IMG/VR virus record: IMGVR_UViG_3300017527_000519
Coordinates: 1-61,732 of that record
Length of the DNA stretch: 61,732 nucleotides
Strand: one strand, 5' to 3'
Source of the DNA: a virus
Made by a program: the position numbers and the translations under genes. Below the pieces are notes generated by a model. It did not search any database. It was given only the letters and a program-made list of their open reading frames with translations, and was not told the origin of the DNA. This document shows positions 178 to 61,544 of the stretch, piece by piece (positions within the stretch are counted from its first letter, which is position 1; every line of letters begins with the position of its first letter).

Positions 178-804
178 TTATGCCTTCCTGTATTTTTCAA
201 CCGTTGAATCAAGCTCGTCACAGAACAATTCCAGTTCTACTTTAAGCTTCTTGATGAATTTTTCATCCCTATCGACAACAACGTCTAACGGCCTCATACC
301 GGTGCAGTATGACCGAAAGTACCACTGTTTAGCATCGCAGACATACATTGACCCTTGGACCTGGCGGTGGTGGATGGCTGGTAGGATACCAGCCTGCAAC
401 CGTTCGTACTGGATGCGGCTGATAGCATCCTTGGTTTCAAACCCCGCTACGATTGGCCCACCATCCCAAGCAATTAGACCATCAGGGGAACAACCGAACC
501 GCTTGCGCTCATCCTTGTAAACGAAAGCGACCTGGGACACATCAACTCCGAACTTCAGTTCAAATGTAAGGCGGCTTTCCGGTTCCATTTCCTTCCCCCG
601 GTTAAAGGCTGACAACTCCCACTGTTTGCCACTCCGCCCGGTGATTCGTTCATTGGCCAGTTTGTCAAGATAAGCCGCACGTTCTTTGGACCGGGTGCCG
701 TCCATCTTGACGATTTTGTGAAAGTTGCTGGCCGATGGCAGGCCCAGCTTCAGCGCGAACCATTCCGGGGATGATTGGTCTATGTCTGTTATTACGATTG
801 GCAT
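178..804 (-). CDS. YqaJ/lambda-exonuclease-like recombinase nuclease
   Basis: A 208-residue protein of the YqaJ viral recombinase family, 5'-3' exonucleases that resect double-stranded ends to leave a 3' strand for annealing. The PD-(D/E)XK core is visible: SPEWFALKLG with SASNF near residues 12-28, RGKEMEP at 69-75, acidic D108 in CSPDGL, E123-x-K125 in GFETKD, and the Q-x-Q helix at 148-150. Its length is normal for the family. It starts at 804 with GAGGAAGGA upstream, within a few bases of the ERF stop, so exonuclease and annealase are co-translated. Together they form a Red-like recombination pair for replication intermediates and genome circularisation or concatemers. Confidence 0.88.
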   Translation of the reverse strand: MPIVITDIDQSSPEWFALKLGLPSASNFHKIVKMDGTRSKERAAYLDKLANERITGRSGKQWELSAFNRGKEMEPESRLTFELKFGVDVSQVAFVYKDERKRFGCSPDGLIAWDGGPIVAGFETKDAISRIQYERLQAGILPAIHHRQVQGSMYVCDAKQWYFRSYCTGMRPLDVVVDRDEKFIKKLKVELELFCDELDSTVEKYRKA

Positions 805-806
805 GG

Positions 807-1607
807 CTATCCTTCCTCACCAGGTTCACGGTCAACCGGTTTTGCATCAATAGCCGCGCTGATGGCCTGGCGTACCTTGGCAAAGTTTTCTGCTCGAATT
901 GTCCCAAGCGTTTCGGCCTCGGCAATCTCCATCAGCTTTTCTTTCTGCTTTGCGCTTGGGTTAAGCTCCTTATACATCGCCTTGAGTTCTTTTAATTGGG
1001 TGTCTGTGATGGTTTTGATAGATGTTCCAGAATTGCCATCATCATCGGCGCTTGCATCCGTTCCCGCTAACCCGGTTATTGACTCAAATGTGGCCGACCG
1101 TAGATAGGTAAGTGTCGATCTGATTTCCTGCAAGGGGTTTTTTTTGCCGCTTGAATCCGGTGGGCCAAACATCGAAACAGAGTCGGTATGACCAAACCTG
1201 TGTTGCAAAACGCACTCAACTCCTATTTTTTTGTCGGGCTGAATCGGTATAAACTTTGTGGAAAAGCCGTGTTTGGCAAGGAATGGGGATACCGTTTCAA
1301 GCATTTGCCCCAAGGAAGTATACCAAGACTCGTATTGTCGGTTGAACTTGTCTTTTTTCAACTCGATTTTTTCTTGGTGAAATAAAGCCAGGTCTTTGAA
1401 GTACGCTTTCCTCGCCTCGTTTGCTTCATCCTCGCGCTTTAACTGCAAGAACTTTTCGAGCTGGTCAAGCGGGGTATCTTTGGTGAGTGCCACTTCAAGA
1501 ACCCGGTCGTACATGGATGCTGTTGCCACCGAGATTTCTGCCGGTGCTGGTTTGGTGATTTCCAGCTTTTTCAAAACTTCAACCGCGTGTGTTCCTTTGT
1601 CGTTCAT
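807..1607 (-). CDS. erf: ERF family single-strand annealing protein
   Basis: A 266-residue protein matching the ERF superfamily. Residues 70-180 hold the conserved core: an aromatic-rich helix (RKAYFKDLALF), then KDKFNRQYESWYTSLGQMLETVSPFLAKHG split by short variations, then VECVLQHRFGH and a segment ending LTYLRSATFESITGLAG. ERF proteins bind and anneal single-stranded DNA. The gene lies directly upstream of the YqaJ nuclease, the usual exonuclease/annealase pairing. The C-terminal third is charged and probably a flexible interaction tail. The start at 1607 has GGGGAT upstream and overlaps the end of the preceding gene (stop 1610-1612). Confidence 0.88.
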   Translation of the reverse strand: MNDKGTHAVEVLKKLEITKPAPAEISVATASMYDRVLEVALTKDTPLDQLEKFLQLKREDEANEARKAYFKDLALFHQEKIELKKDKFNRQYESWYTSLGQMLETVSPFLAKHGFSTKFIPIQPDKKIGVECVLQHRFGHTDSVSMFGPPDSSGKKNPLQEIRSTLTYLRSATFESITGLAGTDASADDDGNSGTSIKTITDTQLKELKAMYKELNPSAKQKEKLMEIAEAETLGTIRAENFAKVRQAISAAIDAKPVDREPGEEG

Positions 1608-1609
1608 GG

Positions 1610-1936
1610 CTACATCCCCTTTTTAAGTTTAATTTCCCTTGCACTCCAAAAATATTCAAAGTCGCAATCATCTGGTTCAAAATCATCTTGAGCCTTTTCA
1701 ATAGCGTCCGCCTTTGAAACTGCCAAGATGTCAAAGGTTTCGTCGTATGAGACTTCAATACTGACTTGATACATCTTCATTTCACCAGACTCCATCAATG
1801 CCTTTTCCGTAGCGATTTTATGGAGGCGGCTATCTATTTCGTTTAAAGCCTCTATTTGTTCCCTGTCCCCAAATTTAAGAGGACGCTTTAAAACTGACGG
1901 TACCTCCGCGTCCGGTAAAATTGAATGTAACGGCAT
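1610..1936 (-). CDS. Hypothetical protein with DpnD/PcfM-like C-terminus
   Basis: A 108-residue protein with no clear catalytic motif. The N-terminal half is mostly helical and charged. The C-terminal half (from about residue 55, YQVSIEVSYDETFDILA) alternates beta-like and acidic residues and ends in a compact Asp/Glu/Phe-rich stretch, loosely recalling DpnD/PcfM-type small domains; that match is by eye and weak. The start at 1936 has GGAGGGAACC upstream. It sits between small zinc-binding proteins and the ERF annealase in the same operon. Confidence 0.6.
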   Translation of the reverse strand: MPLHSILPDAEVPSVLKRPLKFGDREQIEALNEIDSRLHKIATEKALMESGEMKMYQVSIEVSYDETFDILAVSKADAIEKAQDDFEPDDCDFEYFWSAREIKLKKGM

Positions 1937-1959
1937 GGTTCCCTCCTAATAGTTGATCG

Positions 1960-2166
1960 TCATTTGCGGGATTTCACCATTGTTTTTAGTCGATACCCAC
2001 CACCCGGCATCCAACGGCGATCGGTTAAGTGTTGGAATTTTTCCTGGTAAACTTTATGCTGCTCATAGGTATTTTCCAGATCATCAAGAAGGATCTCAAA
2101 GCAATGATCACAAATACCCTCATCGTCAACCAGATCCGCATTACAGGTTTCGCATTTTAATGCCAT
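1960..2166 (-). CDS. Small zinc-ribbon protein
   Basis: A 68-residue protein with two CxxC knuckles near the N-terminus (KCETCNADL and CDHCFE, residues 5-22), the pattern of a structural zinc ribbon, followed by a charged helical region. The start at 2166 has GGAGGCAGGACT upstream and overlaps the 3' end of the preceding gene by ten bases, so translation is probably coupled. Such proteins in phage early operons often bind nucleic acid or host transcription proteins; no specific role can be assigned. Confidence 0.65.
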   Translation of the reverse strand: MALKCETCNADLVDDEGICDHCFEILLDDLENTYEQHKVYQEKFQHLTDRRWMPGGGYRLKTMVKSRK

Positions 2167-2447
2167 AGTCCTGCCTCCTTCATAGCCTCATACTGGTATT
2201 CAGCCTTATCTGCCTCATACTCAGCCGCCTGCCGATCGAGATCCCCCAGGATAGCATCAATCAGGTAATCCTCTTGGCCTGCGTTGATGTTAATTTCAGC
2301 GCCATCGGCTACAACGCTGTAGATGCAGACCTGTTCTGCAAAGCGAGGTTCATGCCACCCGTCACCGCACGGTGGCTCGTATTCGTAATGCACCACCACT
2401 TCCACATCGTCATCATCGATTATCATGTCCGTTTCGTAGGTTGGCAT
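2157..2447 (-). CDS. Hypothetical acidic phage protein
   Basis: A 96-residue acidic protein. Residues 14-50 ([14 protein letters not shown], then [13 protein letters not shown]) resemble a recurrent unnamed small phage family in which a beta-strand pair is followed by a Pro/Gly loop and a short Glu-rich region that specifies a beta hairpin. The C-terminus is a helical Ala/Glu/Tyr-rich tail. The start at 2447 has AAGGAGGGACAT upstream, and the stop overlaps the next gene. Function unknown. Confidence 0.6.
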
Positions 2448-2494
2448 ATGTCCCTCCTTGTAAATCCCCCCCGGCCATTGCTAACTCGTCGGTT

Positions 2495-2835
2495 ATGGCG
2501 CAATCAGAAGCGCCGTTAGCTGGGGCCATACCCCAGGCCGGGGGGAAACTGTGATTGTTACTCCCCGTACCCGTACCCGTACCCGTACCCGTCCCCGTCC
2601 CCGTCCCCGTACCCGTACCCGTACTCGTACCCGTCCCCGTACCCGTTCCCGTACCCGGTCCCGTACCCGTTCCCGTTCCCGTCCCCGTACCCGGTCCCGT
2701 TCCCGTCCCCGTACCCGGTCCCGTTCCAGTTCCCGTACCCGTTCCCGTACCCGTGCCCGTCCCCGTCCCCGTACCCGTACTCGTACCCGTAAGTATTATG
2801 ACTTTCGCCGTCAATTATTCCCATGATTTCCTCAC
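2495..2835. repeat. Repeat unit 1 of a tandem gene duplication with hexanucleotide array
   Basis: First of two tandem copies of a unit of about 345 bp. Each copy has a shared left flank (GGCGC-loop-GCGCC hairpin, then a GGGGCC-type hairpin), an array of about 38 variants of the hexamer CCCGTA (2561-2790), and a shared right flank ending TTTCCTCAC. The right flank carries the start and Shine-Dalgarno of a minus-strand gene. Variation within the hexamer falls mostly at one position, as expected if the array is coding. Confidence 0.85.
2558..2824 (-). CDS. Gly-X dipeptide-repeat protein A (Tyr/Asp/Asn-Gly)
   Basis: An 88-residue low-complexity protein: a short unique N-terminus ([14 protein letters not shown]) followed by about 35 dipeptides of Gly with Tyr, Asp, Asn, His or Thr, ending Gly-Glu-stop. 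It is encoded by the hexanucleotide array. The start at 2824 has GAGGAAATC directly upstream, and the paralogue at 2906-3178 keeps the same start context, N-terminus and final Gly-Glu-stop, which argues that this frame is the real one. A flexible, Tyr-rich acidic chain could form condensates, bind metal ions or interact with RNA polymerase or other host proteins; none of these is shown. Its partner in sequence is the DUF6948-like gene just upstream. Confidence 0.65.
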
Positions 2836-2841
2836 TCGGTG

Positions 2842-3168
<327 letters not shown>

Positions 3169-3189
<21 letters not shown>

Positions 3190-3492
3190 ACAGTCTATCA
3201 TGGAAACCACGGTGAGCATGTTAAATCGGACGGTAGGACAGGGATCTAAAACCGTTTCCGGCAAGGGGCCTTTTTCCGCAAGCTCACCAAGTCCTTTTGT
3301 CGTACCCCATCGACGGATGACAGAGGCATCTTCAAGCTTGCCATGCTCATTACCGTGACCATCAGCTTTGGATGTAAACAACCCCACGAACACCCAACCG
3401 CGTTGCATGATAACGATACGCATATCACCGGTTGTTGAGTCCTTTGCCACGTACCTTACTCCGTCTAATTCTATTTCGTTTGGACAGTTCAT
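3169..3492 (-). CDS. DUF6948-like protein
   Basis: A 107-residue protein. After a short N-terminus it shows the pattern I associate with the DUF6948 family: an Ile-Val strand, aromatic and Gly-rich turn (RGWVFVGLF), a charged loop, then ASVIRRWG and GLGELAEKGPL, with a hydrophobic C-terminal strand ending near an Ile-Asp-Cys. The family name is from memory and the similarity is judged by eye. The start is placed at 3492 because AAGGAGGAAAGC precedes that ATG; the longer frame upstream runs through a GC-rich hairpin. Downstream it overlaps a Gly-X repeat gene, so the three genes look like one functional set. Confidence 0.6.
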
Positions 3493-3995: not shown

Positions 3996-4370
3996 ATGTT
4001 CGACTCGATGAGCGTTGAAGTGCAGGAAGACCCAATGAAAGAAAGCTGTTGTATAACATGCTCGCATCGCGGAGAACTGCCCGCCGCAAAATGTATGCAA
4101 CAACCCCACTGCCCGCTCAACCAGCCGAGGGAACCAATTTCGTGTTTTCTGCCAAAAAAATATCCACGGCTGCATAAGGCTCGGATAAAGCCCGAAGACA
4201 GAATGCAATGTAAGTATGAGGGCTGCAACAGGATGACGGGTAATAAGGTTCCCGATATCCTGTGTTATATCCATAAAATTGTGGTACTCCGGCGAATAGC
4301 GGGGGGAGTAACCGGGCCGGACCTTTTGAAATCAGGGTGGAGAAAAAGGAAATGGCTTACCACAAAGTAG
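3996..4370 (+). CDS. Cysteine-rich hypothetical protein
   Basis: A 124-residue protein with a good Shine-Dalgarno (AAAGGAG before ATG at 3996). It carries many cysteines: CCITCSHRGELPAAKC and CMQQPHC in the N-terminal half, then CKYEGC and a C-x2-H near residues 75-95, the layout of two zinc-binding modules, and a basic C-terminus (WRKRKW). This suggests a nucleic-acid-binding zinc protein of the early region. I do not recognise the family. Confidence 0.6.
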   Translation: MFDSMSVEVQEDPMKESCCITCSHRGELPAAKCMQQPHCPLNQPREPISCFLPKKYPRLHKARIKPEDRMQCKYEGCNRMTGNKVPDILCYIHKIVVLRRIAGGVTGPDLLKSGWRKRKWLTTK

Positions 4371-4371
4371 C

Positions 4372-4545
4372 ATGCCACACTGTGGCACTTGCGCGGCGAA
4401 CCAGAGTGTGTTAGGTTGGATAAAACCTTCAGCCTGGATAGAGGCTATGCACACAATCTTTGAACATGAAAATGGACCCATCACAAGCGGCATTCCCGAT
4501 GCCGTGGAGCTATCCCTCCCGTGGTGGGTCTTTTTGCGTGGTTAA
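4372..4545 (+). CDS. Possible 57-aa protein spanning structured region
   Basis: An ORF from ATG 4372 to TAA 4543-4545, starting MPHCGTCAANQSVLGW and ending PWWVFLRG. It has a CxxC pair and many Trp residues, but no clear Shine-Dalgarno, and it overlaps a perfect inverted repeat and a terminator-like hairpin. The stop lies just before the Shine-Dalgarno of the GIY-YIG gene. It may be a real small gene, a leader ORF, or chance. Confidence 0.3.
   Translation: MPHCGTCAANQSVLGWIKPSAWIEAMHTIFEHENGPITSGIPDAVELSLPWWVFLRG
4373..4387. promoter_or_regulatory. Perfect 7-bp-arm inverted repeat (possible operator)
   Basis: TGCCACA-C-TGTGGCA, a perfect palindrome around one central base, immediately after the stop of the cysteine-rich gene. 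Its shape fits a dimeric regulator site; I see no second copy in the window. Confidence 0.35.
4475..4535 (+). terminator. Terminator-like structure before the replication genes
   Basis: GACCCATCAC (4475-4484) pairs with GTGGTGGGTC (4521-4530; one G-U pair), enclosing a second hairpin CGGCAT-loop-ATGCCG (4488-4504), and is followed directly by TTTTT (4531-4535). It sits after the early regulator and before the initiator gene, the same relative position as tR1 in lambda, and could act as an attenuator needing antitermination. Confidence 0.5.
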
Positions 4546-43100: not shown

Positions 43101-45459
43101 GGGCGAACAGAAACACTCCTACCAGGAAACGCTTGAGCCCGTTACAGATCAGGACGTTATTGAAAACCGGAAATCGAAACGGAACGTCAAGCTTGCTGCA
43201 GAAACAACTATTGCCCGGATCGGATCGGAAATGGCCGAGGGGATTGATAAGTTTACCGGGGCCATATCGACCAGGTTGGGCAACATCAGTAAAAAAATAA
43301 AATCCAAGATACGGCGGCTGGACTTTGACATCAACAAAAAATCAGCCGCGGACGTTGAGGCAGTCATGCCTCTGCTTAAAAAAGCCCGGAAGAAGATGAC
43401 CCGGGACGATTACGCAGATTGGGACTATGTCCGTAAAAACTCAGCCATCGACAAGATAAATGAGCTAATCGACAAGTATGGCCTGCGAACCGAATACGAT
43501 AAGTACCGGGAGGTTTTAACCCGGTTGCGGCGTGAGGGTCTTGATGTGGGCCTTGAGATAGGGCTCATACAAGAATACGCGCCCAGGATATTAAAGGACC
43601 CCAAAGGTTTTCTGACCGCCATTGGCAAGGATCCTGATTGGGGGGTTTACAGCGAACAGATAAAGAAACGGGCTAAAGAGCTAGATATGGACATGGAGGA
43701 TATGGACATCGACCAGAAAGCGGCGATCGTATCCAACATGATCCTTGGCGGTTACTCAGGCCTGGGTGGTGTGCCAGCAACGAAAGAAAGAAAGCTCAAA
43801 AAAATACCTGCCTATCTGAATCGATTCTACATGGATTCGGACGGGGCCCTGATGCGGCATATCTACGGGATGCGGAAACTAATCGAGGGTAGAAAGTTTT
43901 TCGGTAAGATCCCGAAGAAGGTTGCCGAGATGCGGCGGCGGTTGCGCCTGGCCGAAACTCACATGCGGAAGCTTCAGGATGAAATGAAAACCGCGTCCAC
44001 CGAAGATAAAGCCAAGATGAAAAAACGGTGGAACAAACTGTTCGGGCTCAAAAAACAGTACCAGGCGTATCTTGATAAATACTCGATGCAACGTGATTAC
44101 CGGCAGAATATCGGTGCCTATGTGGTGGAACTGATCGAATCGGGCGAGATCCGGCCTCACCAAGAACGTGTTGTCAATGAGATCCTAAACGCGAGATTCC
44201 ACGAAAAAGGCGCCTACGGAGTCGTACAGGCGTACAAAAACCTTTCCTATATGGATACCATGGGTTCACCCATCAGCGCCTTGACACAGATAGGTGACAT
44301 GGCTTGGGCGGCCTTTGACGGTGGACTTATAAAGGCACTGAAACATGCCGGCCGATCGATACTTAAAAAATCACGGATTACCAAGGAGGATGTTGGGATA
44401 GAACGAATCGCCCAAGAGTTTGAGGACGCCGGATCCTTGGGCAAGGCGGTTTCGTTTGTGTTCAAATGGGTAGGCCTGGAAAAGATTGACTCGATCGGTA
44501 AAGAGGCTTTGCTGAACACGGCCTTTGAAAAATATAAAAAGCAGGCCAAGAGCAACCCGGACAAGTTGAAGTCCCAAATATCAGAAATCTTTGAAGATGA
44601 AACCGATCAGGTTATCGAAGACCTGAATAATGACGAAATTACCGACAACGTAAAGCTATTGGTTTACAGCAGGCTGCTTGACTTTCAACCGGTGGCCCTG
44701 TCCGAGATGCCTGAAAAATACCTGACGGCCGGTAATGGTCGCCTGTTTTACATGCTGAAAACATTCACGTTAAAGCAGTTTGATATTTATCGCAACGAGA
44801 TTTACAACAAATTCAAGAACGGCGATCGGGCAGACAAGGTTCAGGCCATAAAGAATCTTGTGAGGCTCACAATGTTTTTTGTGATTGCCAATGCTGGCGC
44901 CGACGAACTGAAGGATTGGGTGCTTGGCAGAAAGACCGACTTTGAGGACAGGGCGGTGGATAACATGCTACGCCTGGCCGGGGTATCGAAGTTTTACACA
45001 TGGAAAGCCCGGACGGAGGGTATCGGGTCCGCTACCCTGAAACTGATACTGCCGCCTGTGAAGTTCATCGATTCGCTGACCAAGGACATCACAAAGGCCG
45101 GGGATGAAAAGGGCCTGGAAACTGTTGGATCCATACCGCTGGTTGGTAAGTGGGCATACTGGCGCATGGGCCGCGGGGTAAGTAAGCGTGACGATCTTTG
45201 GGACATTCGGCTTAGAAAAGAAAAGCGCCGGCTGAACGATATTAAAAACCGGATGGAAGAAGCCCCCAACCAAAACGCCTTCAGGCAAAAATATAACCGG
45301 GAACTATCGAGACTCCGTAGGGCAAACGCGCTGCAGGGCAGGTTGAACAATTTTAAACAAAGAATCAACCGGTTAAAAAAGTCGGGTGGAAACAAGGCCG
45401 ATATTGACAGGCTTGCCAATAAAAGGATAGACTTCATTAAACAATTTCTTAAAGAATAA
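31147..45459 (+). CDS. Giant polyvalent virion protein: methylase, SNF2 helicase, zinc-protease motif
   Basis: A single 4,770-residue ORF from TTG 31147 (one base after the previous TAA). In order: ejection-like N-terminus with Gly-zipper hydrophobic stretches (about 150-205 and 270-360); disordered linkers; a small alpha domain (1059-1150); N6-adenine methylase with LEPAIGTGNF near 1362 and NPPF at 1429-1432; SF2/SNF2 helicase with GSGKT 2064-2068, DEAH 2225-2228, FFLTGTP and QREGRIIRQGN 2619-2629; metallopeptidase-like HELFH 3237-3241; a domain ending KGFYDKILPAAANKF near 3806; and a long helical C-terminus. This is the DarB-like plan of phage antirestriction proteins injected with DNA. No frameshift is seen. 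It takes 23% of the genome. Confidence 0.85.
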   Translation: MEPQYDWQTIQSSPEYWDLKPEQRALAKAEYWKRYVEPSEELKAYSPEKQELAKSRFLEPENYVPYERGFIGDVGSRLARGGVGLLESVGGAMRLADADPTQETGIVAKAGKSLADFAERTREGSDFLKPDISEATGAEGVVKRGFGGAVESAIPSLAPLAGTIAGAKAGGLLGTALAGPAGTLPGTIIGGGIGGIGTLFATFGLGQYQTTYDDTVSELTGKGVSPEEADIKARKNALVSATAEAGGELIGDLAAMTFFGVFGGQAAKQPLKLTIKQLLGAGKVGFAKAIAKSVPFEVGSEMGTAYFQAKAAQEAGVSTLPPGEAMAEAVLPAVFLSLMFGGAVHGMNHIEATNIYNGLNSKDPETRIRAAESISLRIKDKEERQQWANIATGYIDSGEQMPLDKPIIDFAIQKKEDDGGKTADIQSATSVDEALKAFEDATRPLAPSIAALTDPLYQDRLQRQGMIDREWGYGPESDIQRQAQFPAQTPEEQAAMEAAIVEQRNKGPREQALKAAGLLQTSGEIPSQGVDEAQQRREVGRAALKYPKPETPTGIAFPETGPTPDRVPPGMERTGAWTHDPVGDYWKGVAAKEGLLESAAEPERDLTEYWANVREKYGLQEETPEPPPVDTSDAEFKAWEQKAQRGLTEEEKAEFAAEIEKASEYKGIISGKGEDGKTVKPAPAGKNVKGIVVEEEFEPTSKDELIEKYRIYEREFDKKIKEHGSVSAAETHALASSGLLQEGVAAARHHLGLPNTMKPGTPLMEREKPTPPIKGPQTKKEKAAKATGVRRGEVGGKMREGEVVITSSGRKTSPFPKVSFGTNRKATLTVRRGEQWLIKEAAEEAKSRGDGFNQRSFEQDIGVKNVPQASKDSAEEYLFGEQPEIPKSILKPLIPKEPIKGPTSKKEKALKEYRDYVAALSTEQREAVSDLIEKEPKRPSGALFKLRKAVDAAKPKKAATEPKAPKTAIPVQDKDLKTIQEITDRIKSIEKQRDELEPPVEHHKFADFEKRLARFTKRHDFLWAKRAKLLSEQKSQKDTPGPETKEPKAPASKPKYGEKNKLFTKDSADAARELLRKKLGQVSTGLDPELVQAGIQLAGYHIEAGARSFGDYAAAMIADLGNAVKPYLRGWYEAVRYYPSFDAKGMTEAADINEKDLTDTKKVINNKEEKEVPDGTLREPTEEPPEGEQAGDVSGTVEGETPGSTLPGPGGRGRKGTSRNDGGRDAGLHGERDRGQEPADNVDYSITPDDALGAGGPKQKYKDNVAAIRVLKDLGPRKATPEEQAILVKYVGWGGLPQAFPKPNGDVSTGWQSEVDELQDVLSSEEYAAARKSTQDAHYTSATVVGKIYDAIKKFGFKQGKILEPAIGTGNFVGLMPASIRSRSSITGIELDPITATIADKLYPKQRIVNSGFESVSIAPGSFDLAIGNPPFGDKKLFDSQHPEFKSFSIHNFFFAKSLVGLRPNGLLSMVVSSSMMDKRGMDQRKWLAGRAELVGAIRLPNTAFKSNAGTEVTTDILFLRKLMDGEQIPDAKWIDLKPIEAEDGTSYLVNEYFADHPEMVLGVPVKNKLHPGEVVDGVYKGVAGFAPNEGVDLGEAIDAAVSFLPKDIYRAGQTVEEVQRPEILVSDVGFSQPYGYTVDDSGNAVRRLPDVNGEHVFEPVLYAGKPLAGKRLEKFKGLLKIRDAVRTLIRAEIADESKATLDRYRKKLNRVYDGFVKKHGYISVPATSKVLNQDPTDLPLLRSLEEKFDSGVSAAVARRTGEKPRGPRANKSSIFTVRTREPYREATTAANAKDGLAIVLREDGYADIDRIAELTGKTVDEAVKDLADIIFKNPVTEGYETSDIYLSGNVKKKLTQAKEARSRDAVYNDNVEALKKVLPKDVPVEKIHFEVGATWIPAQVYEDFSREVLERNATVQYIEDVGVWNIKVEKGISPFDSTRRSAAKIYTDLVTGSDVAVYEYIDKKRVFDREGTVDAQQKAKEINSAFQDWALNDTDRRKIISKNFNDKVNTTIDGKFDGSHMVFPGMGVITTGVKRDDQLMAHQKNVVWRLIQKGKGLVDHVVGSGKTFLSIATGIEMKRMGLLKKPMYVVPNHLVGQWAMDFQRLYPGAKVLVIDKTNFVKSKRQESMGRIATGEWDAVLVAHSSFGFVKMPYEYEKKFYADQIAQYEAAIVALSKSEGKKSRSVKQMENAKDKLKSKMQALANRPKDATVDFSELGVDALFVDEAHEFKNLFYATKRNRVAGLGNQKGSQKAFDMFVKTQFISETNNGRGVFFLTGTPVSNSISEMYTMMRYLEYDRMKEMGIRHFDQWANMFASAVSDWEVDPSGTRYRLQTKMDFVNVPGLMAFYKDFADVVSTDDLQKWAKERGQTWPIPDIKGGKPETVVAEKSDLQKNFMDWIVQRFDNMPSDPKEDNPLKATGEAMKGSLDIRLINPSLPDHPGSKVNLAVKNITATHKKWNARKGTQLVFCDLSVPSKAKGKHTAEIKALQQRIRKLETKLEAETDPEKLSSIEEEYTKLTDKFEKYSPAELMAASSKFSVYDDVKAKLISNGIPENEIAFIHDANTDLQKEDLFSRVRNGRVRVLIGSTSKMGAGMNVQNRLVALHHLDAPWRPSDLEQREGRIIRQGNKFFMEALKKGEKFAVDIFRYATKETLDTRRWQIIERKAKTIEQLRTGNLQWGEVISDTTGAAANAAEMKAASSGNPLILEEIQAKKDLETLEMEKRSDRSKRFGFKNTIEHRDKLEKSYKGDRKTIEKDIKFIENHPRDNTPEGWSVFINEKQYTAKGLISVPKKYEGKDKGEKKANAKAIKDATENNAKALKKAKADFEVGIKKELVPYLVRDLKANLADFTVSIRGIEFDVTRNHYSPTINFEPSIGVAQIFSRALWHSYGPSYDVRDLNSDGLFVEGLIIRLHNAIGSMVNDREVAEQNMKKNREEANREADIADRGLKKPPFDETKIQDARKKHTDILTQLQTESANEPTEVPDFSMWTDQVIERSASPTPTPGYYERAKGPSGEMEWLPAIGSKKIEIYPWVETFVRKKEIGTKNIWSVSEASTGSKFPGSFGTRKAAVSDAKRQLDNVGKDAFLDMIKSHIANIGESPWSTGKPKLSTKTDRRTHPKDPGGAEYTEQTRRSPLTPRLRRKDRRGDTITAKQVAAEFRKMGFGSNIAGDSVTVRTPTGSIAINVADSIVTDDGATISFSYGREAKAGEKVAGSYFNGAIDLKRNLADKFTLSHELFHHMKTAGLFNPAEEALLAKHGDEEAQARWIEGQLRNRKNTRGIAGKLVQKVRDFIDAIVNSFIRTERGILRDVEAGNILQRQGTPNANETQHSTIAGRWQSQMANFLSDKLPGSGSPKQILQTLDSWAKKGLIKSEELEWSGLREWLAEQDGKVGKQDILDFLAANHVQVKEVVKGKQSKYTIDDIENGELEQLEDGTWAVWQGEFAEQVGEGETEQAAIDDAVKTLGIAGMSVDDTKFSQYQEPGGENYKELLLTLPETKQKVEIPKIAETKQGYDDRWFVSDQNGDQISGDGHPTKEGAIEKAKAHIDRYTKEIAPQKSQYKSRHFDEPNVLAHVRFNERTGPDGERVLFIEEIQSDWHQEGRKKGYKGKGLPPGYRVSGSPNDLGRFVVYDSNGVIIPSPRGHATEQEAIAYAVKKIDVPPNAPFKKTWPMLAMKRMVRYAAENGFDQIAWTPGEVQADRYDFSKQIKEIFYRQHSDQSDKYEFKATAHSGETVIEEVGIPLSRIEEISGKEIAEKIKNGKGTDNSAALREWGEQTGVNLNVQAGQEGRVLSGLDLKVGGEGMKGFYDKILPAAANKFFGKKAWGGARVGTAKVAADDTKYTVEKYGEIYRIRQNGVLLHGPGFKSAEAAWSRVEKAQESDLKEVWSLPITPQMRSKALYEGMPMFSTKIIDTLTNEVGSSQLATDIYNFANGLVQSGIKSFKVFTARIYNKFKEVYKKIKPHLKSMWDTLNNQGGYIVLQEGEQKHSYQETLEPVTDQDVIENRKSKRNVKLAAETTIARIGSEMAEGIDKFTGAISTRLGNISKKIKSKIRRLDFDINKKSAADVEAVMPLLKKARKKMTRDDYADWDYVRKNSAIDKINELIDKYGLRTEYDKYREVLTRLRREGLDVGLEIGLIQEYAPRILKDPKGFLTAIGKDPDWGVYSEQIKKRAKELDMDMEDMDIDQKAAIVSNMILGGYSGLGGVPATKERKLKKIPAYLNRFYMDSDGALMRHIYGMRKLIEGRKFFGKIPKKVAEMRRRLRLAETHMRKLQDEMKTASTEDKAKMKKRWNKLFGLKKQYQAYLDKYSMQRDYRQNIGAYVVELIESGEIRPHQERVVNEILNARFHEKGAYGVVQAYKNLSYMDTMGSPISALTQIGDMAWAAFDGGLIKALKHAGRSILKKSRITKEDVGIERIAQEFEDAGSLGKAVSFVFKWVGLEKIDSIGKEALLNTAFEKYKKQAKSNPDKLKSQISEIFEDETDQVIEDLNNDEITDNVKLLVYSRLLDFQPVALSEMPEKYLTAGNGRLFYMLKTFTLKQFDIYRNEIYNKFKNGDRADKVQAIKNLVRLTMFFVIANAGADELKDWVLGRKTDFEDRAVDNMLRLAGVSKFYTWKARTEGIGSATLKLILPPVKFIDSLTKDITKAGDEKGLETVGSIPLVGKWAYWRMGRGVSKRDDLWDIRLRKEKRRLNDIKNRMEEAPNQNAFRQKYNRELSRLRRANALQGRLNNFKQRINRLKKSGGNKADIDRLANKRIDFIKQFLKE
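34667..34873 (+). CDS. Overprinted small protein inside the giant gene (68 aa)
   Basis: An ATG at 34667 with a near-perfect Shine-Dalgarno (AAGGAGGTGCCTG) opens a 68-codon frame inside the giant gene. The product (YANQLRNHLKENKQAMFLEL, then EKELHEMTAAGMPDFMANEI) has the look of the common small phage/mobile-element family that ends in a Met-Pro-x-x-x-A-x-E-x-V helix. In the giant frame the same bases encode a disordered Pro/Glu/Gly linker (residues about 1174-1243), exactly where overprinting would be tolerated. It may be a relic of formerly separate genes or a translated overlapping gene. Confidence 0.5.
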   Translation: MERYANQLRNHLKENKQAMFLELLKAKRLDQHCRDRGAEAEKELHEMTAAGMPDFMANEIVVKNLLTM

Positions 45460-59124: not shown

Positions 59125-60165
59125 TCAATACCACGCTGTGGTGCTTAGAAACGCCTTGATAAATGCAGCCGCTACTTGCGGTACGATGGCGTTCCCAGCC
59201 CCGCGCAGCGCCCCCACTCGATTGGGTAGCCCATCAGCCAAAGGGAAAAGTAGGGATTCAATTTCAGGCTGGTTTTCGATCGAGGCCCGTTGTGTTCGAG
59301 CCTTATCCCAAGTGCCACGTCTACCTGCCTTGTGTAGTCGCTGCCCCCGCCTTCGTTGTAGGTTGTCGTTTTCGGAGATAGGGTCTGGGGACTTGGCCAC
59401 CCTGCCAGGCACCCGCCGCCACTTTCCATCGGCGCAGGGGATGAGGATGGAGTTTTGCCAGAAACCATCAGGGCCATCGCCTGGAGATCCCCACCGCCCG
59501 ACTCTTTCCTGCCTAATTCCTGCTTCCTTTCCGCTGATTCCGGGCCTCCTGTAACCACTCTTGGCGTTGCCCACCCCGCTGTTTGGCTCATGGTTATTAA
59601 ATTCAACCTTGATTTTTTGTGTACTGTTTTGTGCGCTCCTCTTTCCCCATCCGTTTGAGCTGGACTGCGCCACCCACCACAAACGTTGCCTGATGTGCGG
59701 TGCGCCAACGCTCGCAGCGCACAAATCAGCGGCCCCGACTGCATATCCCATCGCTTCCAGATCAAGTCGTACTCCTGAGAGCCATTCACGGCCATCCTTG
59801 CTCGCAACCTGCTCTCCAAAGATCGTTGCAGGTTTTCGCTTGGCGTTAGCGATGAGCCACCGAAAAGCGGGCCAAAGGTGGCGGGAGTCGTCAATTCCTC
59901 CACCCTGGCCTGCGACACTGAATGGCTGACATGGGCAGCTTCCTGTCCAGACGGGTTGGTCTTCTGGCCAACCAGCCAACCTGAGTGCGTAAGGCCAGCC
60001 TCCAATGCCTGCGAAAAAGTGACACTGGACAAATCCGTCGAGGTCTGCCGGTTGGATGTCGTTGATGGATCGGTCGTCAACCTTGCCATTGGGAATCAAC
60101 TCCTCCTTGATGAGTTCCTTCAGCCACGCGACTGAGGTTTTTTCATTGTCGTTGTAATAGTTCAT
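59125..60165 (-). CDS. DNA cytosine-5 methyltransferase (Dcm-like)
   Basis: A 346-residue methylase, last gene of the leftward operon. Visible motifs: I FFAGIGG (50-56), IV PCQPFS (78-83), VI as GEQV (Gln in place of Asn of ENV, as in a phage subgroup), VIII RQRLWWVA, and IX-X RVGALRGAGNAIVPQVAAA near the C-terminus. The start is 60165 (GGGGGG before ATG). It would methylate the phage genome to resist restriction. A second ORF of 305 codons is open on the same strand in another frame. Confidence 0.82.
   Translation of the reverse strand: MNYYNDNEKTSVAWLKELIKEELIPNGKVDDRSINDIQPADLDGFVQCHFFAGIGGWPYALRLAGWPEDQPVWTGSCPCQPFSVAGQGGGIDDSRHLWPAFRWLIANAKRKPATIFGEQVASKDGREWLSGVRLDLEAMGYAVGAADLCAASVGAPHIRQRLWWVAQSSSNGWGKRSAQNSTQKIKVEFNNHEPNSGVGNAKSGYRRPGISGKEAGIRQERVGRWGSPGDGPDGFWQNSILIPCADGKWRRVPGRVAKSPDPISENDNLQRRRGQRLHKAGRRGTWDKARTQRASIENQPEIESLLFPLADGLPNRVGALRGAGNAIVPQVAAAFIKAFLSTTAWY
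59172..60089 (-). CDS. Overlapping gene within the methyltransferase, alternative frame (305 aa)
   Basis: ATG 60089 follows AAGGAGGAG at a 10-base spacing, and 305 codons run without a stop through the dcm gene in another frame. The product has the features of a family often seen beside phage dcm genes: SLESRLRARM, EYDLIWKRW, CALRALAHRTSGN, Ser/Trp/Pro spacers (WRSPAQ, GWATP, GWPSP), and the end LNPYFSLWLMGYPIEW. Recognition of that family is from memory. If real, about 900 bases are double-coding. Function unknown. Confidence 0.55.
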   Translation of the reverse strand: MARLTTDPSTTSNRQTSTDLSSVTFSQALEAGLTHSGWLVGQKTNPSGQEAAHVSHSVSQARVEELTTPATFGPLFGGSSLTPSENLQRSLESRLRARMAVNGSQEYDLIWKRWDMQSGPLICALRALAHRTSGNVCGGWRSPAQTDGERGAHKTVHKKSRLNLITMSQTAGWATPRVVTGGPESAERKQELGRKESGGGDLQAMALMVSGKTPSSSPAPMESGGGCLAGWPSPQTLSPKTTTYNEGGGSDYTRQVDVALGIRLEHNGPRSKTSLKLNPYFSLWLMGYPIEWGRCAGLGTPSYRK

Positions 60166-60209
60166 ACCCCCCCTATTCGACCTCCATTGATGGTATATAA
60201 AGCGCCGGC

Positions 60210-61544
60210 TCATTCCTGTGAGGCCGAAATAAAGCACCCTCCACCACCACCGGATGATGCCGCCGGAATTTGCGCTTTATCAAACCTTGCTTCGATGGTG
60301 CAAGTTTCATAGATGGCGCCTGTAGTGAAGGTTGAGCCTGACAAACTCCCGCCGCACCCAAAAACGGAACCGATGACATAACCGCTGTCTGGTACGACTT
60401 GGAATGTTGCAGTGTCACCGTAATCAACCACCTGCTTCGATGGTATTAGATGCCCGTGTTTTGTTGGTGCGATCAACACAACGCACGTTTCGATTTCGTA
60501 AGCCACATTGATTGTGGTCACTGTGTGTTCGTCAATCTGGACCGTCACCGGTTGCGGGATGACCCAACCCCTGACATCACTGAATTCGATTTCCGTCGGT
60601 CCTACCGGCAAATTTAGCTGATCTCCGCTGTCATGCCAGGTTTTGCCGTCTACCAGTCGCCACTTTGCGGCTGCCGGGTCAAGATTGACCTGCAACGTTC
60701 CACCTTGATAGCGATATGCCGCGATGACATGCTTCATTTCCCGGCCAGTCCGAGCGTTATCTGCATCGACAGCGTCGCCGGTTAGTGCGCTCAGATGTGA
60801 CACGTGTGGGCTGGAAAATACCGGAATCCGAAAGTGTGGGATTCCATCAGGAAAATACGAGCCTCCTGAGTACGTCATGACAGAGCAGTATCCTACCCCA
60901 TCTGACCCCATCCATCGACCCCCGGCACTGTAACTATATACGCCGGGACCTGGTTGGAAATTTTGGAGTTTGCTATGGTGCATCCCTATGTTATGGCCCA
61001 TTTCGTGGACTGTGGTTGGGCCGGCCATTTGTTGAACCCGCACCAGGGAAAACCCATAATCACTATTGCCGGCTGGTTCTGTCATCAGCCAGGCAATCCC
61101 CCCAACATCATTTACTTTCGCAACTAGGACGACTAAATCCGCCCCAAGATTGTCACGGACTTCGTGTACCTCGTCCATGTACCCATCCGCAGGATTTGTT
61201 AGTCGTCGAAGGTCTGTTACTGATTTATTAGACTCGACATAAATTGTTTCCAACATACCAACTACTAGAAAATCAATTCCGGTATTACTATTGTACGCCG
61301 TGAGATTAGCATAGTCGATAGCAGCTTCAATCTCGGCGTCTATGTCAGTTGCCCATGACTTTGCCGCTTTCGTGTAGACCATCAGCACTGTGATAGTCGC
61401 CGGTGTGTCTGGATCGTATGGCGTATCATATGATAAACTCCTTGATACATCGTACGGCAGCGGAATAGATATGGGGTTTAATTCGTCTGCCCAACCAGGG
61501 ACGGCCAGGCACAAAATAATGATGGTGGTGATTAGTGTTTTCAT
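60210..61544 (-). CDS. Secreted metzincin protease with InlB-like repeat and CFI-box-like tail
   Basis: A 444-residue protein: Sec signal (LITTIIILCLAVPGWA), a reprolysin-like metalloprotease with HExxHxxGxxH at H180-H190 (HEMGHNIGMHH) and the Met-turn CSVMTY (M223), then beta domains resembling divergent InlB B-repeats (HGHLIPSKQVVDYGDTATF), and a C-terminal GGGGGCFISA, like the start of the CFI-box tail of extracellular deltaproteobacterial proteins. TAGGAGGTACC precedes ATG. It would cleave surface or extracellular proteins. A protease of this kind in a phage early operon is unusual. Confidence 0.8.
   Translation of the reverse strand: MKTLITTIIILCLAVPGWADELNPISIPLPYDVSRSLSYDTPYDPDTPATITVLMVYTKAAKSWATDIDAEIEAAIDYANLTAYNSNTGIDFLVVGMLETIYVESNKSVTDLRRLTNPADGYMDEVHEVRDNLGADLVVLVAKVNDVGGIAWLMTEPAGNSDYGFSLVRVQQMAGPTTVHEMGHNIGMHHSKLQNFQPGPGVYSYSAGGRWMGSDGVGYCSVMTYSGGSYFPDGIPHFRIPVFSSPHVSHLSALTGDAVDADNARTGREMKHVIAAYRYQGGTLQVNLDPAAAKWRLVDGKTWHDSGDQLNLPVGPTEIEFSDVRGWVIPQPVTVQIDEHTVTTINVAYEIETCVVLIAPTKHGHLIPSKQVVDYGDTATFQVVPDSGYVIGSVFGCGGSLSGSTFTTGAIYETCTIEARFDKAQIPAASSGGGGGCFISASQE

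Follow-up and report, generated by a model that had tools for sequence, protein, structure and literature searches.

A second reading frame within a phage cytosine methyltransferase gene probably encodes the other subunit of the same enzyme

Long same-strand overlaps between prokaryotic genes are disputed, mostly because their function is unproven. The viral window analyzed here, a stretch of 61,732 nucleotides (IMG/VR record IMGVR_UViG_3300017527_000519), raises the question of what is encoded near its end on the minus strand, where a second open frame of about 900 bases lies within a cytosine methyltransferase (dcm) gene. Judged from sequence comparison, and with a probability of roughly 0.88, the region encodes both subunits, alpha and beta, of one C5 cytosine methyltransferase on the same strand. 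The computed support consists of conservation and openness, purifying selection acting on each frame, ribosome-binding sites inside the gene, and a complementary distribution of motifs. Alpha would supply motifs I-VIII, which make up the AdoMet-binding and catalytic half, as well as motif X, and beta, translated from its own internal start, would supply motif IX and modules resembling a target-recognition domain. If translated, the two chains would together form an active methyltransferase acting on phage DNA, perhaps with a role in protection or signaling.

The dcm open reading frame (59125 to 60237, minus strand) extends 5' of the alpha start, an ATG at 60165 picked from the family alignment, to a GTG at 60237. 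The beta frame, 305 codons with an ATG start, lies entirely within it in +1.

59125 to 60165, minus strand: alpha, predicted C5 cytosine methyltransferase subunit, 346 residues from the ATG at 60165
59172 to 60089, minus strand: beta, nested +1 frame, 305 residues, from the phrog_1008 match and the selection and shuffle tests
60100 to 60108, minus strand: Shine-Dalgarno sequence AAGGAGGAG, its 3' end 10 nt ahead of the beta ATG, from the sequence

A sequence-only reading of this DNA had described the second same-strand frame of 305 codons and its Shine-Dalgarno sequence, and both were confirmed. In the window, the beta span stayed open in 1 of 5000 synonymous-codon shuffles of dcm, with a mean of 5.0 stops, and the +2 frame of dcm was open for at most 61 codons in a row. 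Directly upstream of alpha is a gene for a reprolysin-like (M12B) metallopeptidase (60210 to 61544, minus strand) with the zinc motif HEMGHNIGMHH (PF13582, E 3.3e-12), an odd neighbor for a phage methyltransferase.

Homology searches of both products, as the earlier reading had suggested, each gave a family: alpha matched phrog_363 (E 2.7e-69) and beta residues 14-295 matched phrog_1008 (E 1.4e-15), both labeled DNA methyltransferase in PHROGs. Alpha was recognized by both Pfam and NCBIfam, with an E value of 6.5e-12 for PF00145 (C5 cytosine DNA methyltransferase), and holds motifs I-VIII and X, five of which were located by alignment.

59995 to 60015, minus strand: alpha motif I, FAGIGGW, residues 51-57, by alignment
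59926 to 59934, minus strand: alpha motif IV, PCQ, whose cysteine (Cys79) is catalytic, identical in all 15 aligned sequences
59806 to 59814, minus strand: alpha motif VI, EQV (ENV in HhaI), by the family alignment and the HhaI alignment
59683 to 59691, minus strand: alpha motif VIII, RQR, with R159 and R161 invariant in the alignment
59176 to 59196, minus strand: alpha motif X, GNAIVPQ, by alignment

FAGIGGW corresponds to motif I of the C5 methyltransferase family. Among the features of the PF00145 class, alpha has motifs I, IV, VI and VIII and the catalytic cysteine and lacks motif IX on the same chain. The motif IX pattern was found in 0 of 257 alphas, and the earlier statement that the dcm frame keeps all its motifs has to be corrected on this point. 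The HhaI profile matched alpha across motifs IV-VIII, and a Foldseek search of the PDB with the AF2 model returned Dnmt2, HhaI and HaeIII (E 3e-7 to 4e-7 over about 170-190 columns); alpha is thus predicted by its model to have the C5 methyltransferase catalytic-domain fold.

The motif missing from alpha was found in the other frame. Three parts of beta were distinguished, each scoring above all alpha-preserving shuffles at most or all loci.

59685 to 59849, minus strand: beta residues 81-135, predicted helix and hairpin, with constraint beyond alpha (78 of 78 loci)
59310 to 59684, minus strand: beta residues 136-260, built of W-[STP]-P modules, where the target-recognition domain would sit (74 of 78 loci)
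59214 to 59261, minus strand: beta residues 277-292, motif-IX-like segment LNPYFSLWLMGYPIEW (77 of 77 loci; hhalign E 1.2e-6)

The motif-IX-like pattern, named for its position between VIII and X, was present in 230 of 257 betas versus none of 257 alphas and was missing from 27 betas. Pfam and NCBIfam searches with beta gave no match, including none to a regulator or an HNH domain. Neither the beta profile nor a 20-column profile of motif IX found a C5 methyltransferase among PDB sequences, the sole match being a chance WW peptide. The AF2 model of beta was poor (mean pLDDT 58), with a block at residues 81 to 130 of about 77-85, and its Foldseek search of the PDB gave no meaningful match. Its top matches in a viral structure library included a 'Methyltransferase' of the Edwardsiella phage eiDWF and an uncharacterized FoX4 protein, which, going by phage and annotation, are probably other betas.

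Single-chain methyltransferases of mycobacteriophages provided a guide to how the two products relate. ShiLan gp70 matched phrog_363 over residues 1-385; its residues 196-388 also matched the C-half of phrog_1008 (E 2e-61), and the protein has modules homologous to beta 136-260 in frame. Graduation gp47 gave the same double match (5e-30 for the phrog_1008 C-half). In some of these enzymes the motif-IX segment and the recognition-domain-like modules that precede it lie in frame between motifs VIII and X. By hhalign, beta aligned with three single-chain mycobacteriophage enzymes at RLAPAFSEWMMGWPAGW, immediately ahead of motif X (E 1.2e-6), and alpha aligned with the single-chain enzymes only in its motif IV-VIII part (E 5e-21). 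Enzymes of the ShiLan, Estave1 and Graduation type contain the catalytic half, the recognition-like modules and the motif-IX segment of alpha plus beta, but with everything in one frame. Because the motif-IX-like segment is absent from alpha and the C-half of beta occurs in frame in the single-chain enzymes, beta would be the other half of the enzyme, most likely the recognition-side half. In ShiLan and Estave1 an upstream frame also seems to resemble the N-part of beta, a likeness given no weight as proof.

Two other gene arrangements were considered. In the Gordonia phage Upyo (1309-2578 of locus L267), a gene with motifs I-VIII is accompanied by a 421-codon +1 open reading frame that carries recognition modules, IX and X and extends back over the first gene, possibly an intermediate between the single-chain and nested forms. 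An in-frame alpha-beta fusion suggested by eye in a gut phage (L272) was unsupported by profiles.

Whether the beta frame is maintained was evaluated in loci selected with the alpha profile (80 viral, dcm-selected) and with the beta profile (80 viral and 80 genome loci). The +1 overlap of beta with alpha was present at every one of the 80 dcm-selected viral loci and the 80 beta-selected genome loci, and at 78 of the 80 beta-selected viral loci. Among loci with both motifs (9, 9 and 11 without a motif match were dropped, and two beta-selected viral loci were counted in the alpha-selected set), the +1 frame was open from motif I to motif X in 68 of 71, 67 of 69 and 66 of 69, where synonymous shuffling predicts 4.6, 3.1 and 5.1; over this span the +2 frame was open in 0, 1 and 0 loci. 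In each of the 229 loci scored, a set that excluded overlaps under 600 bases and contained a few near-copies of profile seeds, the real +1 frame had a higher beta profile score than any of 100 synonymous shuffles, and median scores were about 272-278 bits for real and 98-105 bits for shuffled frames. Openness within these loci is partly by construction, and the motif I to X test was used instead. The beta of the window reached 317 bits, where the best of its shuffles reached 154, a result inflated because the window is itself a profile seed.

A few loci departed from the common arrangement. The two exceptions in the beta-selected viral set were L136, with two complete overlapping alpha/beta pairs in tandem (308-3430), and L176, with a rearranged copy. 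L176 (1283-3374) and L189 (1536-3435) have in common a tandem duplication of part of the alpha/beta region, with beta broken there into three open pieces. In L050, L197 and L256 a single in-frame stop breaks alpha while the beta frame continues, by decay, error or recoding.

Substitution patterns were compared in 32 independent close pairs. Differences at alpha codon positions 1, 2 and 3 were 34, 21 and 45% in the overlap and 16, 12 and 71% in the alpha-only 5' part, a small control with 409 differences. The dSN/dSS ratio was 0.46 (bootstrap 0.38-0.55) in the overlap versus 1.55 (0.95-3.4) in the alpha-only part, and dNN/dNS was 0.62 (0.52-0.74) versus 1.23 upstream. The ratio of stop-creating to other alpha-silent changes (SX/SN) was 0.27 in the overlap and 1.07 upstream. 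Alpha was constrained as well (dNS/dSS 0.31), and both frames are by these computations under purifying selection. None of the loci is closely related to the window, so we infer selection on its own frame from the family. The double coding over some 900 bases that had been read from the sequence was thus borne out by a family of its own for the second product, by openness across phages and by purifying selection; the stop-ridden shadow frames and lack of purifying selection named at the time as arguments against it were not what the analysis of synonymous constraint found.

Constraint was unevenly distributed along the overlap. When alpha-preserving shuffles were scored against beta in the dcm-selected loci, beta residues 19-80 exceeded all 30 in only 23 of 78 loci, and the counts for residues 81-135, 136-260 and 261-300 were 78 of 78, 74 of 78 and 77 of 77. 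In the reverse test, in which beta codons were shuffled and alpha was scored, alpha 45-110 and 111-168 exceeded all shuffles in 78 of 78 loci each, 169-235 in 9 of 78, 236-300 in 73 of 78 and 300-334 in 75 of 77. The first 80 residues of beta look like a passive shadow of alpha motifs I-IV, and the alpha stretch after motif VIII (169-235) looks like a passive shadow of the beta modules; since this stretch is barely constrained beyond beta, beta leads there. The last third of the overlap is under double constraint. Because beta 19-80 is little constrained beyond alpha, the true start of beta may vary.

Two internal start sites, A and B, recur among relatives. The arginine codon of the alpha DxRSI segment was AGG in 59 of 184 representatives, versus 8.7% elsewhere, and 58 sequences had AGGAG there, 54 of them with an ATG 8 nt on. 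The second site lies 5' of the alpha DxRHL segment; N15 has AGGGAGGA followed by an ATG there, which gives a beta of 214 residues with its predicted start at position 44823 of the N15 record, and the N15 +1 frame is closed upstream. A Shine-Dalgarno sequence with ATG or GTG was present at either site in 116 of 180 loci, compared with 47 expected, a 2.5-fold enrichment. Among 173 loci, the frame was blocked between site B and motif X in 4 and between A and B in 14. The beta of the window uses neither recurrent site, and its Shine-Dalgarno sequence points instead to the ATG upstream as the probable start.

Explanations other than two subunits were weighed against these results. Programmed ribosomal frameshifting from alpha after motif VIII would produce one chain that includes beta, and it is favored by the adjacency of the frames (+1), by the single-chain versions in mycobacteriophages, and by Upyo, where motifs I-VIII are in one frame and the modules, IX and X in the next. 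Such a shift would leave beta 81-135, which lies over alpha motifs VI-VIII and is constrained in every locus scored, untranslated; it would have to occur twice, as motif X is back in the alpha frame, and it does not account for the enrichment of internal Shine-Dalgarno sequences and start codons. We consider it very unlikely. The same holds for a role of beta as a regulator or inhibitor of the methylase, even though nesting would have beta expressed together with the enzyme: the motif-IX-like segment is missing from alpha and present in beta, single-chain methyltransferases contain the C-half of beta as a structural part, and the domain searches matched no regulator. The sequence-only reading had envisaged an ancient paired system, and the double coding and an old pair, open and selected across phages, stand; its example of a methylase with a regulator or inhibitor is not supported.

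Beta could also be open, and similar among phages, only through conservation of alpha or of the DNA, with no protein made. Alpha is indeed conserved and alone explains beta 19-80. However, synonymous shuffles that preserve alpha lose the openness and most of the score, stop-creating changes are avoided, and alpha 169-235 is barely constrained beyond beta. The shuffle and rate tests exclude a passive shadow for beta residues 81-300, and for the frame as a whole we regard it as extremely improbable.

Two subunits of one enzyme, the favored reading, have counterparts among known split methyltransferases. Lee et al. reportedly found in 1995 that a different frame nested in the large-chain gene of M.EcoHK31I encodes its small chain, and the window pair shows this feature, a second chain in another frame within alpha. 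According to PMC3404938, M.EcoHK31I consists of two polypeptides, motifs I-VIII and X being on the larger and motif IX on the smaller, and alpha and beta match this anatomy. By anatomy the window pair would be a split methyltransferase of the M.EcoHK31I type, as compared with M.EcoHK31I by description only. M.EcoHK31I (YGGCCR) differs in belonging to a bacterial restriction-modification system, among the E. coli Type II systems, whereas the window holds a phage gene and no partner nuclease was seen. Its predicted target-recognition domain is assigned to alpha in PMC3404938, whereas here most constraint at this position is in beta (beta 136-260 above all shuffles in 74 of 78 loci; alpha 169-235 in 9 and alpha 236-300 in 73 of 78). 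The arrangement of overlapping halves is known from this single studied bacterial enzyme. M.AquI (CYCGRG), also a two-subunit C5 methyltransferase, likewise has the catalytic motifs and motif IX on separate chains (PMC3404938), but its small chain has IX and X, whereas X (GNAIVPQ) is in alpha here. The ShiLan domain, described in PMC11855218 as an out-of-frame HNH endonuclease within a phage methylase, is likewise a second frame within a phage methylase gene; it differs as a homing endonuclease insert, beta having no HNH match and being, on our reading, part of the enzyme.

The overlap was widespread. In tblastn searches of 50,697 phage records, beta was found in 152, with at least 80% coverage in 101, and alpha in 408, with at least 80% coverage in 181. 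The beta matches included N15, epsilon15, BcepC6B and eiAU, and the overlap was also found in K1-type, Paenibacillus and other phages. Depositors annotated both frames in Xanthomonas phage PhiXhv-18, K1ind2 and Paenibacillus phage Jacopo, and the beta-like frame alone in, for example, Vibrio phage 1.236.O and Pseudomonas phage phPA-G. Among the genome matches were records with Alphaproteobacteria, Verrucomicrobia or Planctomycetota in the title, and many were metagenome bins. N15 DNA matched 63 of 5,426 E. coli genomes, and the one neighborhood inspected among these (L433) was a prophage with no restriction gene seen.

For two further alpha families, each represented by 80 viral loci, an open +1 frame contained the strict motif-IX pattern at 63 and 60 loci, with 0.00 expected by shuffling. 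The strict pattern was lacking in 16 and 19 loci, of which four inspected cases have close variants by eye; the pattern is in the alpha frame in L344 and in a closed +1 frame in L428. In held-out halves of these families, the +1 frame exceeded all 30 shuffles in 40 of 40 loci each and was open in 34 and 32 of 40 versus 1.3 and 0.9 expected. Overlapping two-frame methyltransferase genes are apparently common in phages. An open-access literature search found no paper on overlapping phage methyltransferase subunits, and the phage spread and the map of mutual constraint appear new relative to the literature searched.

A broader picture, to which we give even odds, joins overlap as the ordinary state with origin from a slipped domain, mutual overgrowth, and recognition mainly in beta. 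Two-frame encoding would then be ordinary in several large phage C5 methyltransferase families, and databases would record such pairs as single-gene enzymes or, where the wrong frame was chosen, as hypothetical proteins. The starting point may have been a single-chain enzyme whose recognition domain and motif IX slipped into +1, after which the halves overgrew each other. If this is true, one stretch of DNA ties specificity, mainly in beta, to catalysis. The alpha/beta overlap would have a clear biochemical reason, is under selection in each frame and is very widely spread, and its presence in the well-known laboratory phages N15 and epsilon15 makes it testable at once. Gene finders would miss or misname the partner frame, and phage methyltransferases cloned as single annotated frames may be inactive halves.

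Inserts were observed in two loci. In the Komagataeibacter phage phiKX1 (2612-3130 of L262), an HNH endonuclease lies in the beta frame straight after motif IX (PF01844, E 6.2e-6), and an insert of the same type was seen by eye after beta motif IX in L017 (about 4030-4400). In both, alpha continues through to motif X, and the inserts resemble the out-of-frame HNH endonuclease described in PMC11855218.
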